Positions 1-4,979 of a DNA stretch of 64,000 bases are shown piece after piece. The translations under genes and the position numbers were made by a program. The stretch's first letter is position 1. Each line of letters begins with the position of its first letter. This DNA is from Saprospiraceae bacterium. GTDB lineage: Bacteria > Bacteroidota > Bacteroidia > Chitinophagales > Saprospiraceae. The notes under the pieces are model-generated. The model was not told where the DNA came from and made no database searches. It saw nothing but the letters and a program-made list of their open reading frames with translations. Where the stretch lies: positions 180,220 to 244,219 of the forward strand of contig JAHDGJ010000002.1 in the NCBI GenBank assembly GCA_020627705.1, in the 5' to 3' direction.

Positions 1-2
1 CT

Positions 3-539
3 GCATTTGCTGCATTGCCTGATGGAACAGTTGACGCCTTGTTGGCTGACCCTACTGGAGATTTGACACAGATATTATTGTATCATGTCTTAGGTGCAGA
101 GGTATTGAGTACCGATTTGTCTGATGGGCAAGTAGCTACAACTATTAATGGACAAGATGTTACTGTTTCTATTAATAATGGTGTAGTTCAAATAAATGAT
201 GCTGAGGTAACCATGGTTGATTTGATAACGGATAATGGTGTTGTACATGTGATAGATGCGGTACTTCTACCTAATCTTTCTTCAAATAAAGAAATTGTAC
301 TAACTGAACGTATTACAGTGTATCCTAACCCTACAGCGGATTTTATTCAGTTTAAAGGTGAAGGACTGACCAATGAAAATATGTTAGAGATTTTGGATAT
401 GACGGGAAGAGTAGTATTAAAATCAAATTACTTGGACCTGACTAATCAAGTTGATGTTTCAGACTTAGTGGTAGGAAAATACATTGTCCAAATAAAAAAC
501 GAGGAAAGAATTTTGGTTCAATCCTTCATTAAAAATTAA
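3..539 (+). CDS. Fasciclin (FAS1) domain protein with T9SS sorting domain, 3' part only
   Basis: This is the 3' end of a gene that begins before the window; the reading frame is open from base 3. The first ~95 residues read as the end of a FAS1 (fasciclin) domain, including the H2-like segment ILLYHVLGAEV and the closing DNGVVHVIDAVLLP. FAS1 domains are extracellular adhesion modules. The last ~75 residues (from about base 309) are a T9SS type A sorting domain with the VYPNPTADF motif and a terminal beta-strand region ending in IKN, so the protein should be exported by type IX secretion and then cleaved or anchored at the surface. A stem-loop follows the stop codon. The domain call is strong. 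The number of FAS1 domains in the full protein cannot be seen. Confidence 0.88.
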   Translation, partial: AFAALPDGTVDALLADPTGDLTQILLYHVLGAEVLSTDLSDGQVATTINGQDVTVSINNGVVQINDAEVTMVDLITDNGVVHVIDAVLLPNLSSNKEIVLTERITVYPNPTADFIQFKGEGLTNENMLEILDMTGRVVLKSNYLDLTNQVDVSDLVVGKYIVQIKNEERILVQSFIKN

Positions 540-552
540 GAATTTAACTGGT

Positions 553-590
553 GTTGGCTGTCCATAGTAAAAAGATATTATGGGCAGTCC
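553..590 (+). other. Bulged stem-loop between the FAS1 gene and ECF sigma 1
   Basis: GGCTGTCCAT at 556-565 pairs with ATGGGCAGTCC at 580-590, leaving a single bulged T at 588. The stem can extend inward by three more pairs. A stem-loop with the same bulge and a compensating base change lies at 2877-2911, in front of the second sigma gene. It could be the FAS1 terminator, but no U-run follows directly, or it could be a leader RNA structure of the sigma operon. Confidence 0.6.
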
Positions 591-703: not shown

Positions 704-1261
704 ATGTCTACTGATCACGAAATAATAAGCCGCATACTAAATGGAGAGAGAGCTCATTTCCGAGAACTCTACAATCGGCATATTCAGTATTTAATGCTCA
801 CTGCATTTAGATATATTAAACGAAGAGAAGTTGCGGAAGATTTAGTCCAAGAATCTTTGATAAAGATTTTTAATAAGCTTAGTCAGTTTGATGCCGAAAA
901 GGGGAAATTTCGATCTTGGGCAAAAAAAATAGTAATCAATACTTGCCTTGAGTTTTTGCGTAAAAAATCCATTATTCAATATGTGGAAGATTTTCGTGAA
1001 ATTCATTTGACAAATTCCGTAAGAGAAGTGGCTTTAGAAAACTTAGAACTTGAAGACCTGACAAAGGTTATTCAATCTTTACCAACGGGATATCGTGCAG
1101 TGTTTAACATGTACATTATTGATGGGTATTCGCATAAAGAAATTGCTCAGAAATTTTCGATTAGTGAATCCACCTCAAAAACTCAGCTGCTAAAGGCCAA
1201 AAAAGCGCTTAGACTTAACATTCAAAAAGAAGAAATCACCTTTGTTAGAGCATATGCCTGA
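704..1261 (+). CDS. ECF-type RNA polymerase sigma factor (first copy)
   Basis: A 185-residue extracytoplasmic-function sigma-70 factor. Region 2 shows FRELYNRHIQYLMLTAFRYI and the DLVQESLIKIF core-binding/-10 recognition segment. Region 4 near the C-terminus has the helix-turn-helix GYSHKEIAQKFSISESTSKTQLLKAKKAL. It should direct RNA polymerase to a small regulon and be held inactive by the membrane protein encoded next. The frame is open upstream to a TTG at 623, but ATG 704 is preferred: it gives 185 residues, exactly the length of the paralogue at 3014, and aligns with that protein's N-terminus. The stop overlaps the downstream ATG by 8 nt (ATGCCTGA), which suggests translational coupling. 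The target promoters are unknown. Confidence 0.9.
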   Translation: MSTDHEIISRILNGERAHFRELYNRHIQYLMLTAFRYIKRREVAEDLVQESLIKIFNKLSQFDAEKGKFRSWAKKIVINTCLEFLRKKSIIQYVEDFREIHLTNSVREVALENLELEDLTKVIQSLPTGYRAVFNMYIIDGYSHKEIAQKFSISESTSKTQLLKAKKALRLNIQKEEITFVRAYA

Positions 1262-2711
1262 TTGGAATAACATAAAATCTCGCTTTGAGGATGACAATTT
1301 TAAAGTCAACCCTTGGTTAAATCCAAGCAAAGATCTCTTGGATGGCTTAGGTATTCTTGAAGAAGAAAAGAAAGAGCAAAAGGAGTCTAAGCCTTATTGG
1401 TTATGGTTTTATGTATCCTTAGGGTTTTTGTTTGTGGCGGTTTTTATCTTCTTCTTATTTAAGCCTAGCTCTTCGAATCCAAAGGTTTACGTTAAGGGGC
1501 AACAAAAGAGTAGTGAGATTTCAAAAGTTAGGGTTAAAGCTGAAGAAGTAAAATCTAATGCGCTTGATTCGAATGATGAAAGGCCTCAAAAACGTAGCGA
1601 AACGGCCAAATCACTTGTAGCATTAAATCAAACTAATGAGGCTTTAAAAGAATCTACTGCTCAGTTCTCTTTAAACAACCGAGCAATTCACACAAATGAT
1701 GTTGAATTTATTGAGAGAGTTGATCTCCTTGAAGGAAAGTCAAGTAGTCAAATTGCTGACTCCAAATTTACCTTTGACCAAAATAGTACTCAAGGTGGGT
1801 TTAGTAAAAAGATAACAACAGAAAAAAATAGAAGGTCTACGATATTGATGCCATTGGCTCAAAAAGAAATAAGTCCAATGGATTTTGAGCAAAAAGTGAT
1901 CATCTCTGACAAACGTTTTATTCCCATTGAACTTAAATCTATCGAAAGACCTTTCACACAACAATTGGCATTTGGTGTAGGTGTTAGTCAGGGTACATTT
2001 CGATTAAATCAGTTGTATAGTGATTTTCTGGATCCAGCAGATTTTAGTCACGGACAAACTAAGGGAATGTATGGCTTCGTAGAGTACGCTAAAAATTTGG
2101 GAAAGAATTGGTTAATTAAAACCAGTGTCTCCTACGAACGTTCAAGTTTTGACTCTGGGCATAACTCTGAAATTTCATATTGCAAGAATTGTGAGGACGA
2201 AAATGTTAGTTCCAATTCTATAGATCTGGTAATGGCAAGTCCTGTCGGCCTGCTTTCTTCAAACCTGGTAGTAAATAGAATGGAATCTTTTGCTGGAGAC
2301 AATATTGATCTCACAGTAAACTTAAACAATCGACATACTATTAGTTTTGTTAACCTTGACCTGGCAGTGGGTCGAGATATTATTGCAAATCCAAGACAGA
2401 GATTACAACTCTTTTCGGGTATAGGTGTAAATTATTTTTCTAAAATTGAAAATGAATTGCATTCATTTTTTGTAGATCACGATGATTTTTCAAGTGGAAA
2501 TGCTGGTATAAGTTCAGATCAAATGTCCATAAATGAGTTTTTATATACGCTCAATTTTGGGCTTAATTATTCTCGGACTTTGAAAGAAAATACCAGTTTA
2601 AGTATCTCCGGTGAATATCGTTCTGCTTTAAATCCAATTTTTAACGAATTGGATTTCAGCTCGGATTACAACAGATTAAGGCTTTCCCTTGGTATAGTTC
2701 GACATTTTTAA
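1254..2711 (+). CDS. Putative dual membrane-spanning anti-sigma factor (first copy)
   Basis: A 485-residue protein overlapping the sigma gene by 8 nt. What can be seen: a charged N-terminal head of ~47 residues (MPDWNNIKSRFEDDNF), one hydrophobic helix at about 48-69 (YWLWFYVSLGFLFVAVFIFF), a polar Ser/Lys/Asn-rich linker to about residue 235, then ~250 residues of alternating amphipathic strands starting FGVGVSQGTF and ending with a terminal Phe (GIVRHF), as in outer-membrane barrels. This layout matches the Bacteroidota family I know as dual membrane-spanning anti-sigma factors (Dma): the head binds the sigma factor in the cytoplasm and the barrel senses the outer membrane. Function is inferred from layout and neighbour. 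A plain barrel protein is the alternative. ATG 1254 is preferred to TTG 1242. Confidence 0.65.
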   Translation: MPDWNNIKSRFEDDNFKVNPWLNPSKDLLDGLGILEEEKKEQKESKPYWLWFYVSLGFLFVAVFIFFLFKPSSSNPKVYVKGQQKSSEISKVRVKAEEVKSNALDSNDERPQKRSETAKSLVALNQTNEALKESTAQFSLNNRAIHTNDVEFIERVDLLEGKSSSQIADSKFTFDQNSTQGGFSKKITTEKNRRSTILMPLAQKEISPMDFEQKVIISDKRFIPIELKSIERPFTQQLAFGVGVSQGTFRLNQLYSDFLDPADFSHGQTKGMYGFVEYAKNLGKNWLIKTSVSYERSSFDSGHNSEISYCKNCEDENVSSNSIDLVMASPVGLLSSNLVVNRMESFAGDNIDLTVNLNNRHTISFVNLDLAVGRDIIANPRQRLQLFSGIGVNYFSKIENELHSFFVDHDDFSSGNAGISSDQMSINEFLYTLNFGLNYSRTLKENTSLSISGEYRSALNPIFNELDFSSDYNRLRLSLGIVRHF

Positions 2712-2741
2712 AGATCTCCCTCAATATCTTTTACCCCTTCC

Positions 2742-2756
2742 CCCTTTATTAAAGGG
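2742..2756 (+). terminator. Short hairpin, possible terminator of the first module
   Basis: CCCTTTA and TAAAGGG form a 7-bp inverted repeat around one T, 31 nt after the stop of the first anti-sigma-like gene. T-rich sequence (ACATTTTTTC) follows after a gap. The loop is tight and the U-run is not adjacent, so the call is weak. Confidence 0.35.
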
Positions 2757-2876
2757 TTCTCCACATTTTTTCAAATATTTTTTAGGCCTAGGCAACCTTT
2801 TTAAAACAAGTACCGTAAAGGAAAGTAAGAAAGGAAAATAACGCCAAGCGATATAAAGATTAATTCAACTGATGTA

Positions 2877-2911
2877 GGCTGTTCTCAATAAAAAGTTATT
2901 CTGAACAGTCC
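2877..2911 (+). other. Bulged stem-loop upstream of ECF sigma 2
   Basis: GGCTGTTC at 2877-2884 pairs with GAACAGTCC at 2903-2911, leaving one bulged T at 2909 in the same place as in the 553-590 stem. Relative to that copy, one C-G pair has become T-A and one G-T pair has become T-A, so pairing is kept while sequence changes. The distance to the sigma start (about 102 nt) is close to that of the first copy (about 113 nt). Confidence 0.6.
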
Positions 2912-2956
2912 ACTTTTCTAAAGTTAAGTCAACTTTTTCACTTTAGAGCCTTTTAT

Positions 2957-2986
2957 AGTAAAGACACGTACGTTTCGTACTTTACT
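2957..2986 (+). other. Imperfect inverted repeat just upstream of sigma 2
   Basis: AGTAAAG, a 4-nt bulge, then GTACG, a TTT loop, CGTAC and TTTACT form a 30-nt imperfect hairpin ending 27 nt before the TTG start at 3014. It may be an operator or a leader hairpin affecting translation. No equal structure is clear before sigma 1. Confidence 0.45.
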
Positions 2987-3013
2987 GTACTTAGTAATTT
3001 AAATTTTTAAAAG

Positions 3014-3571
3014 TTGCCATTATCCGATGTTGAAATAGTAAAAGCAATTCTTTTGGGGGATTCTTCCAAGTTTAATGCGCTTTATGTTAATCACATCCGA
3101 CATTATATGCTTTTGGCAAATAGATATATGCGTTCAAAGGAAGATGCGGAGGATATGGTGCAAGAAGGATTGATAAAAATTTTTAAAAATCTTTCATCCT
3201 TTGATTCTAGCAGGGCAAATTTTAGAACTTGGTCGAAAAGAATCATTCTAAATACATGTCTTGATTACTTAAGAAAAAACAAGCTCAATTATATTGATGA
3301 TTTTGAAAACTTGAAATTTTGGCTGGAAGCAAAAGAAAAGGCTTCTCAAAACCTCGAATTACAAGATCTCACCAAACTTATACAAGCAATGCCCAGTGGA
3401 TACCGTACGATTTTTAATATGTATGTAATCGACGGTTATTCGCATGTTGAGATTGCAAAAGATTTAAATATTTCTGTTTCCACTTCGAAAACACAGCTTT
3501 TAAAAGCGAAAAAAATGTTACGAGCAAAAATTACAAAGCAAGATCAAAATTGGAAGAACATTTATGCTTGA
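3014..3571 (+). CDS. ECF-type RNA polymerase sigma factor (second copy)
   Basis: A 185-residue paralogue of the sigma factor at 704-1261. Region 2 reads MLLANRYMRSKEDAEDMVQE, and region 4 has GYSHVEIAKDLNISVSTSKT. The two proteins match along their whole length, for example at GYR(A/T)(V/I)FNMY(I/V)IDGYSH. The start is TTG at 3014: the next in-frame ATG would remove part of region 2, and TTG gives exactly the paralogue's length. The stop overlaps the next ATG by 8 nt (ATGCTTGA), the same arrangement as in the first copy. The pair probably arose by tandem duplication of the whole sigma/anti-sigma unit, with divergence since. Whether the two recognise the same promoters cannot be read from the sequence. 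Confidence 0.9.
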   Translation: MPLSDVEIVKAILLGDSSKFNALYVNHIRHYMLLANRYMRSKEDAEDMVQEGLIKIFKNLSSFDSSRANFRTWSKRIILNTCLDYLRKNKLNYIDDFENLKFWLEAKEKASQNLELQDLTKLIQAMPSGYRTIFNMYVIDGYSHVEIAKDLNISVSTSKTQLLKAKKMLRAKITKQDQNWKNIYA

Positions 3572-4979
3572 TTGGAAAGACATAAAATCAAAGTTTTCTA
3601 AGGATGACTTATCCAATGATGATTGGTTAGAGCCAAGCAAAAATCTTTGGCAGGGTCCTGAAGTTTCGCCCACAAAGGACGAAAGAAGAAGGCCGATCTT
3701 GTTTTGGTTAACCTTTGGCTTTATCAGTGTGTTAGTTTTGATTGGAATCAGTTTTGGCACGAATACTTCAAAAGGCATTTCTGATAATAAGGTCAAGGTA
3801 GAAAATGAAAGTAAAAACGAGGTTCAAAATCGCAAAGATCTCTTCAATCCTAACACTGATACACCACGATCCGAGCTTAAAAGAATTAACGTAGATACCA
3901 AGGGATCTTCAGATCAGCCTAAGTCGCCTAGGTATAAGCGAACCTTAAATAATTTGTTTAGCGGTACCTCAGAGAACAAAAAATCCATAATTGGACAAAC
4001 CGCTGCCGCAACAAAATTTTTAACAGGGAAGAACTTAACGCAGGATGAAGTCGAGCTTTTGAATGCTAAAAAAAGTTTGCCACATCCTGGTGAGTCCATA
4101 TTTACTAGCTTCGAAAACCTGGGCTTACTTCCGGTAAGTCAAGTTCGACCTTTGAAATCTAGCCATAGGATTGTTTTGCTTGATGATAAAATTAAGGTAG
4201 GAGCAATGGATCAAAAACAAAATCCAAAGAAAGCCCAGATTGGTTTTGGATTAGGAGTGTCTTTGGGTTTTATTTCTTTAAATCAAGCCTTTAGCAATCA
4301 TTTAGCTGCGGCACAATTTGAACATTCCACAAGTCAAGGCGTGCTGGGCTGGACTGAATATATTAAGATCTTCAACAATGGTTGGAAATTTAAAACTGGT
4401 CTTTCTTTCGAACGTATAGAATTTGAGTCTAGTCATAATTCTCAAATCATTTATCTAACAGAGGAAGAAAGTGATTTTAAAAGTGACATTGATCTGGTCC
4501 TTTCTAGCCCTGTAGGGAACATGACATCCAATTTGATTATGACGAGAAGCCAAATGATTGTCCAAGATCAACTGGATGTAGATCTTGATTTGGCGAATCG
4601 ACATATCGCATATTTTATCAACCTTGATTTAGGTGTAGCTAAAAGCATATATAGTAACGATCAAAGTGCTTTTGATGTATATGGCGGATTGGGAATCAAT
4701 TATTTGTCTGGATTAAATAATCAGATAACTACAGTCCAAATTACCAATCAAAATTTTGAAAGTGTTCAAGGGGTAGTAACGCAAAATCAGCAGTCGATGC
4801 ACGTCTTCCAGCCCACGTTTAATTTGGGCGGTCAATACCAATGGAAATTGGATGCCTATACTAATTTGAGTTTTGCGACAGAATATCGTGGCGCTTTGAA
4901 TTCATTTTATGAAGAGCAAGAGTATAGTTCTAAGCTCCGAAGGATTCGAACTCAACTTGGCGTCTTGCATTCTTTTTAA
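3564..4979 (+). CDS. Putative dual membrane-spanning anti-sigma factor (second copy)
   Basis: A 471-residue paralogue of the protein at 1254-2711. The N-terminal head is clearly related (MLDWKDIKSKF with DDWLEPSKNLW against MPDWNNIKSRF with NPWLNPSKDLL). A single helix lies at about 44-65 (ILFWLTFGFISVLVLIGISF), followed by a polar linker to about 220 and a barrel-like C-terminal half (IGFGLGVSLGFISL to the end, GVLHSF). Shared barrel segments include SSPVGN(M)/SSPVGL with TSNL, and the NRH(I/T)...F(I/V)NLDL stretch. The linker is the least conserved part. It should hold the second sigma factor at the membrane and release it on an outer-membrane signal. It ends 1 nt from the convergent folB gene. 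Confidence 0.65.
   Translation: MLDWKDIKSKFSKDDLSNDDWLEPSKNLWQGPEVSPTKDERRRPILFWLTFGFISVLVLIGISFGTNTSKGISDNKVKVENESKNEVQNRKDLFNPNTDTPRSELKRINVDTKGSSDQPKSPRYKRTLNNLFSGTSENKKSIIGQTAAATKFLTGKNLTQDEVELLNAKKSLPHPGESIFTSFENLGLLPVSQVRPLKSSHRIVLLDDKIKVGAMDQKQNPKKAQIGFGLGVSLGFISLNQAFSNHLAAAQFEHSTSQGVLGWTEYIKIFNNGWKFKTGLSFERIEFESSHNSQIIYLTEEESDFKSDIDLVLSSPVGNMTSNLIMTRSQMIVQDQLDVDLDLANRHIAYFINLDLGVAKSIYSNDQSAFDVYGGLGINYLSGLNNQITTVQITNQNFESVQGVVTQNQQSMHVFQPTFNLGGQYQWKLDAYTNLSFATEYRGALNSFYEEQEYSSKLRRIRTQLGVLHSF

Follow-up and report, generated by a model that had tools for sequence, protein, structure and literature searches.

The window analysed here, a stretch of 64,000 nucleotides from a Saprospiraceae bacterium, begins with the 3' part of a fasciclin-repeat gene, followed by two adjacent units on the same strand that span positions 704-2711 (unit 1) and 3014-4979 (unit 2); downstream of unit 2 lies folB (Pfam) on the opposite strand (Table 1). 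Each unit opens with a gene for a 185-residue ECF sigma factor, as the original prediction had stated. Both reading frames scored well above the Pfam cut-offs for sigma regions 2 and 4, with a match to the NCBIfam model Sig70_bacteroi1 that stayed below the cut-off of that model. The two sigma factors are 52% identical (E 1e-71) and have the recognition helix SxSTSKTQLLKAKKxLR in common. A longer start for sigma factor 2 is excluded by an in-frame stop at 3008, and in both units the sigma gene overlaps its partner gene by 8 nt. The fasciclin gene starts upstream of the window (whole open reading frame, L026:7398-8759). A 100-N scaffold gap (L026:8121-8220) ends exactly at the window start, inside the fasciclin repeats, and is probably an assembly break caused by these repeats; the join of the window to the 5' part of the gene and to its promoter thus rests on scaffolding. 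Between the fasciclin gene and sigma factor 1, the transcript is predicted to form a hairpin that may act as a leaky terminator or as a 3' stabiliser. Strong hairpins, differing in sequence, were present in 13 of 13 fasciclin-to-sigma gaps folded in a survey of 13 loci.

Table 1. Features of the two sigma/anti-sigma units and their surroundings (window coordinates)
Feature	Position	Strand	Basis or remark
Fasciclin-repeat gene, 3' part, with type IX secretion sorting domain	1..539	+	Pfam Fasciclin 5e-20, Por_Secre_tail 4e-12
RNA hairpin between fasciclin gene and sigma factor 1	556..590	+	Fold -19 kcal/mol
ECF sigma factor 1 (185 aa)	704..1261	+	ATG start; Pfam sigma regions 2 and 4
Dma-type anti-sigma factor 1 (485 aa)	1254..2711	+	AlphaFold2; PDB fold matches
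Dma 1, head	1254-1385	+	AlphaFold2
Dma 1, inner-membrane helix	1395-1457	+	AlphaFold2
Dma 1, linker	1461-1946	+	AlphaFold2
Dma 1, barrel	1959-2705	+	AlphaFold2
ECF-type promoter-like site of unit 2, GGCAACC-N15-CCGTA	2791..2817	+	223 bp before sigma factor 2
Duplication scar: block like the fasciclin stop-codon region and sigma factor 1 leader	2853..2982	+	Local alignment
RNA hairpin of unit 2, counterpart of 556-590	2877..2911	+	Part of a -13.6 kcal/mol fold
ECF sigma factor 2 (185 aa)	3014..3571	+	TTG start; Pfam sigma regions 2 and 4
Dma-type anti-sigma factor 2 (471 aa), conserved outer face altered	3564..4979	+	AlphaFold2
Dma 2, helix	3690-3755	+	AlphaFold2
Dma 2, linker	3774-4214	+	AlphaFold2
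Dma 2, barrel	4233-4973	+	AlphaFold2

The partner proteins had been proposed to combine a cytoplasmic head, one membrane helix, a long linker and a C-terminal barrel. AlphaFold2 models of both proteins, built with 44 aligned sequences, revealed this arrangement in each copy, with a helix at residues 48-68 and a barrel at residues 236-484 in unit 1, and a helix at residues 43-64 and a barrel at residues 224-470 in unit 2; hydropathy was also examined for the single helix of both proteins. The barrels were modelled with a pLDDT mostly above 90, bearing out the expected structure of one helix plus a barrel, while the linkers (residues 70-231 in unit 1 and about 71-217 in unit 2, with ~150-160 residues lacking predicted structure in both models) were mostly below 50. 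The N-terminal head is small and of low to moderate confidence in both models. PDB fold matches of the unit 1 model were outer-membrane barrels, such as NalP, OpcA, OmpT, OmpW and OmpA, and a viral fold search with unit 2 matched generic outer-membrane barrels only. Pfam called no known anti-sigma domain in either protein. In every architectural respect that could be tested, including the adjacent ECF sigma gene and the Bacteroidota host, the layout corresponds to that of the Dma family, and on architectural grounds we reject a simple porin. Over their full length, the two Dma copies share 31% of residues (E 2e-71). The proposed divergence of barrels and linkers holds for the linker (23% identity), whereas the barrel (38%) is about as similar between the copies as the head (40%).

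A profile search across 298 Saprospiraceae genomes yielded about 45 strong relatives, and the sigma-Dma gene order was kept in nearly all relatives. Counting the window's own locus, 33 of 49 loci have a fasciclin gene immediately next to the sigma/Dma pair and in the same orientation. Most of the 16 loci without an adjoining fasciclin gene end near a contig edge; five are long enough to have shown one (L035, L109, L115, L123 and L132). Because the window genome contains only three fasciclin genes, this adjacency is far from chance. The operon occurs in two orders, fasciclin-sigma-Dma and sigma-Dma-fasciclin, whose distribution largely matches a division of the Dma tree supported at 100/100. 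In one relative, the Dma gene is split into two overlapping reading frames (L035:3476-5066), reflecting a frameshift or an assembly error. Outside the window, the other two fasciclin genes of its genome (G000:C10:117-518 and G000:C31:94113-94892) lie within ~4 kb of an ECF sigma gene, from which the G000:C10 gene is divergent. A literature search for fasciclin together with sigma, anti-sigma or Saprospiraceae, partial in coverage and hence weak evidence of novelty, returned nothing on the operon.

A promoter-like motif, GGCAACC-N15-GCATAT, precedes the first gene of most of these operons. An AAC core is usual in ECF -35 elements, and we take the AAC of the first box to be such a core. Scored as NGCAACY-N15 with at least three of six matches to GCATAT and no more than 200 bp from the first gene (gene starts of a few loci were placed by hand), it was found in 30 of 37 operons, whereas 200 mononucleotide shuffles gave 0.4 on average and never more than 3; since the motif had been spotted by eye upstream of fasciclin genes, as GGCAACC with a sequence like GCA(C/T)AT exactly 15 bases further on, and the second box was fixed as GCATAT after listing the sites, this test is not independent of the discovery set. 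The motif is present in 15/16 fasciclin-first operons and in 15/20 sigma-first operons, the latter lying outside the set that suggested it, and it stands before whichever gene is first when the operon order swaps. At a spacer of 15, at which the second box was defined, the sites averaged 4.9 of 6 matches to that box, other spacers between 9 and 23 giving at most 2.6. The unit is best read as a self-activating fasciclin/sigma/Dma operon.

Within the window, the site ahead of sigma factor 2 has the same motif and spacer as the site before the fasciclin gene of the window scaffold, and both fit the second box less well (CCATA and CCGTA). A looser form of the motif occurs at 10 sites in the window genome, compared to 2 in a reversed control, and these include the fasciclin promoter, window position 2791 and a site before a gene for a 1204-residue reprolysin-like protein. 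The last of these (L142:979-1005, G000:C13; GGCAACT-N15-CCGTA) lies 46 bp before the gene, whose product is a secreted metallopeptidase with a type IX sorting domain and a possible further target. Another site of the genome, GGCAACC-N15-GCATAT (L141:1834-1860, G000:C11), lies 38 bp before a gene for a lipoprotein-like protein matching the Pfam family for the C-terminal part of the anti-sigma factor RskA. Counted across the order, the exact motif was sparse in each genome and said little about targets. Further afield, GCAACC-N15-G(C/T)ATCT sites stand ~30-50 bp before the sigma gene in nine loci with other Bacteroidota sigma/anti-sigma pairs (L168, L172, L174, L180, L186, L210, L221, L226 and L229), a sequence pattern that hints at a wider class of ECF promoters.

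Regarding the origin of unit 2, the copies had been described as paralogues standing side by side, and both phylogenies placed them as sisters (100/99 in the Dma tree, 98/96 in the sigma tree). In the sigma tree, the window copies group next to three genus-mates, which have a single pair at the same place, between the fasciclin and acyl-CoA dehydrogenase genes. These data support a lineage-specific duplication of the pair, and because the copies are sisters in both trees we reject horizontal acquisition of copy 2. The units are separated by 302 bp in which there is no fasciclin gene but the promoter-like site and a block alignable with the sequence that starts at the fasciclin stop codon, takes in the hairpin and reaches the sigma factor 1 leader. 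The alignment score of this scar was 87, as compared to 38.5 ± 6.0 for shuffled sequences (maximum 66 among 300 shuffles). The simplest history would be that the whole operon was duplicated and the second fasciclin gene then lost; a shorter duplication with a separate gain of the promoter would be a less simple one.

We then compared the barrels at their predicted outer face, assigned from the predicted strands and from standard barrel topology with both ends in the periplasm. Most outer-side segments are more conserved (2.53 bits for 252-268, 2.95 for 300-310, 2.05 for 311-349 and 2.20 for 459-467) than the membrane strands, which reach about 1.6-1.9 bits; the exception is outer loop 408-428, at only 1.60 bits. 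The conserved outer-side motifs are PADF, SGHNS and MATPxGF, and the departure of unit 2 from the consensus at PADF and SGHNS was noticed by eye before any counting. Of 28 outer-side positions that reach 2.9 bits or more across the other 42 sequences (cut-off and segment limits chosen by us and used at one setting), unit 1 keeps 24 and unit 2 only 15, the lowest of all 44 sequences, all others keeping 20-27; as the 42 comparison sequences are related by descent, the counts are given without a p-value. Elsewhere, the two copies are alike, each retaining 5/7 conserved head positions and 5/7 other conserved barrel positions. At the remaining 216 barrel positions, unit 2 matches the consensus at 52, and the lowest relatives at 52-53, yet no relative falls below 20/28 at the outer side. 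General divergence is therefore not obviously the cause of the altered face. We also looked for a loss of the outer face in the loci without a neighbouring fasciclin gene and found none (20-25/28 kept), so that the face need not be the binding site for fasciclin. The unusual outer face of copy 2 lends indirect support to the proposal that the copies may sense different outer-membrane conditions.

Single-chain sensors of this plan have been described in other Bacteroidota. In Bacteroides thetaiotaomicron, Dma1/Das1 and Dma2/Das2 have vesiculation, NigD1 and polysaccharide loci as outputs, and the dma2 vesiculation phenotype requires das2 (PMC13088901). As described there, Dma1 and Dma2 resemble the window proteins in having an N-terminal anti-sigma domain, one helix, a disordered tether, a barrel and an adjacent ECF gene; unlike them, and compared by description only, in the window the operon carries a fasciclin gene, a promoter motif is defined and the pair is duplicated in tandem. 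The EcfO-Reo-type system of Phocaeicola vulgatus has an anti-sigma factor predicted, like those of the window, to reach across the periplasm and to carry an outer-membrane barrel, and a sigma gene induced by an envelope-damaging toxin (PMC9308784, PMC13114119). This barrel-bearing anti-sigma factor is reported to control the toxin-induced regulon (PMC9308784), which includes nigD and O-antigen-related genes; unlike in the window, a fasciclin gene is not mentioned in the parts of these accounts that we cite. Loss of the barrel-bearing anti-sigma factor is reported to free the sigma regulon in both B. thetaiotaomicron and P. vulgatus (PMC13088901, PMC9308784). Five Bacteroidales sigma/barrel pairs (L220, L192, L225, L200 and L203) have the same architecture as the window pairs. 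A single profile comparison aligned the two groups over the barrel only (94% probability), and the Bacteroidales barrels match Pfam OMP_b-brl_2, whereas those of the window do not. The shared architecture supports the view that the window system may work like Dma and EcfO-Reo. In FecA-FecR-FecI surface signalling, an outer-membrane event likewise reaches an ECF sigma factor, but receptor and anti-sigma factor are separate proteins where the window uses one chain.

Building on the computed architecture, operon, motif, duplication and altered face, we consider it fairly probable that each unit pairs a sigma factor with a Dma-type anti-sigma factor connecting the outer membrane to transcription, with the fasciclin operon as output and copy 2 re-tuned. 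By analogy with the known family, the cytoplasmic head would hold the sigma factor in check. The predicted chain would cross the inner membrane once and continue through a disordered periplasmic tether to a barrel of about 8 strands in the outer membrane; the outer face of this barrel would serve as the sensor. A cue at this face would release the sigma factor, which would presumably act on promoters of the GGCAACC-N15-[G/C]C[A/G]TA type, chiefly that of its own operon. The main output would be the surface fasciclin-repeat protein, exported through type IX secretion, and the hairpin behind its gene probably keeps sigma/Dma output below fasciclin output. In copy 2, a promoter without a fasciclin gene is combined with a changed outer face and a normal head and scaffold. 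Copy 2 would most likely read a different surface cue and, because the -35-recognition helix is almost identical in the two sigma factors, feed the same promoter type.

The more specific version of this model, in which copy 2 is a re-tuned sensor of a new surface signal that also drives the copy 1 fasciclin promoter, giving two inputs to one regulon, is possible and we advance it tentatively. Copy 2 might instead be redundant, a paralogue on which selection has relaxed and whose outer face has changed by decay, a reading in keeping with its missing fasciclin gene, its longer branch (1.81 vs 0.84) and its minimal count of conserved outer-face residues. We think decay rather unlikely, given that the reading frame has remained unbroken although it shares only 31% identity with copy 1, that the head and the other barrel positions score the same in both copies, that a promoter-like site of its own is present, and that barrels about as far from the consensus elsewhere keep at least 20/28.

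Turning from the re-tuned sensor to its promoter, the GGCAACC-N15-GCATAT site could be recognised by a different regulator, or be shared among several ECF sigma factors; the fasciclin gene would then not be specific to this pair. Like sites (GCAACC-N15-GCATCT) do precede other Bacteroidota ECF genes, and one further sigma/Dma-like pair of the window genome has the motif. Yet most other Dma-like sigma genes of this genome are without it, and the site follows the first gene through the swap in operon order, and we consider this alternative unlikely. It is very improbable that the barrel protein belongs to the ordinary outer-membrane proteins, placed next to a sigma gene by chance and exerting no control over it. 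The barrel fold alone is like that of many outer-membrane proteins, and Pfam offers no anti-sigma assignment, but a conserved cytoplasmic head and an inner-membrane helix are unexpected for a porin, adjacency to the sigma gene is kept across the Dma-type family of relatives, and characterised proteins of the same plan are anti-sigma factors.

The window genome holds about a dozen more sigma genes, each followed by a gene for a Dma-like protein of 400-520 residues, mostly with a single helix (loci L053, L027, L050, L042, L041, L056, L065, L045, L055, L059 and L058). Weak outer-membrane-barrel matches were obtained in five of ten such loci scanned, plus L027; for scale, three Dma proteins are reported for B. 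thetaiotaomicron. One locus (L149, G000:C9:174000-184000) has two further sigma/Dma-like pairs arranged tail to tail, with GGCAACC-N15-GCATAA 57 bp before one sigma gene; a second site of this kind, lying between the pairs, is followed by no obvious gene.

The Dma plan as such is already known; what sets this locus apart is the fasciclin partner, the promoter motif and a tandem duplicate with an altered face. Partner gene, motif and the scar showing how copy 2 arose also go beyond the original prediction. Together, the locus and its relatives provide a conserved partner gene, a predicted output promoter, conserved outer-side motifs and two naturally occurring paralogues whose most unusual difference lies at the outer face, making signal, output and cross-talk of Dma-type sensors directly testable. 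If copy 2 is indeed re-tuned, two outer-membrane inputs would converge on one regulon via paralogous single-chain sensors.
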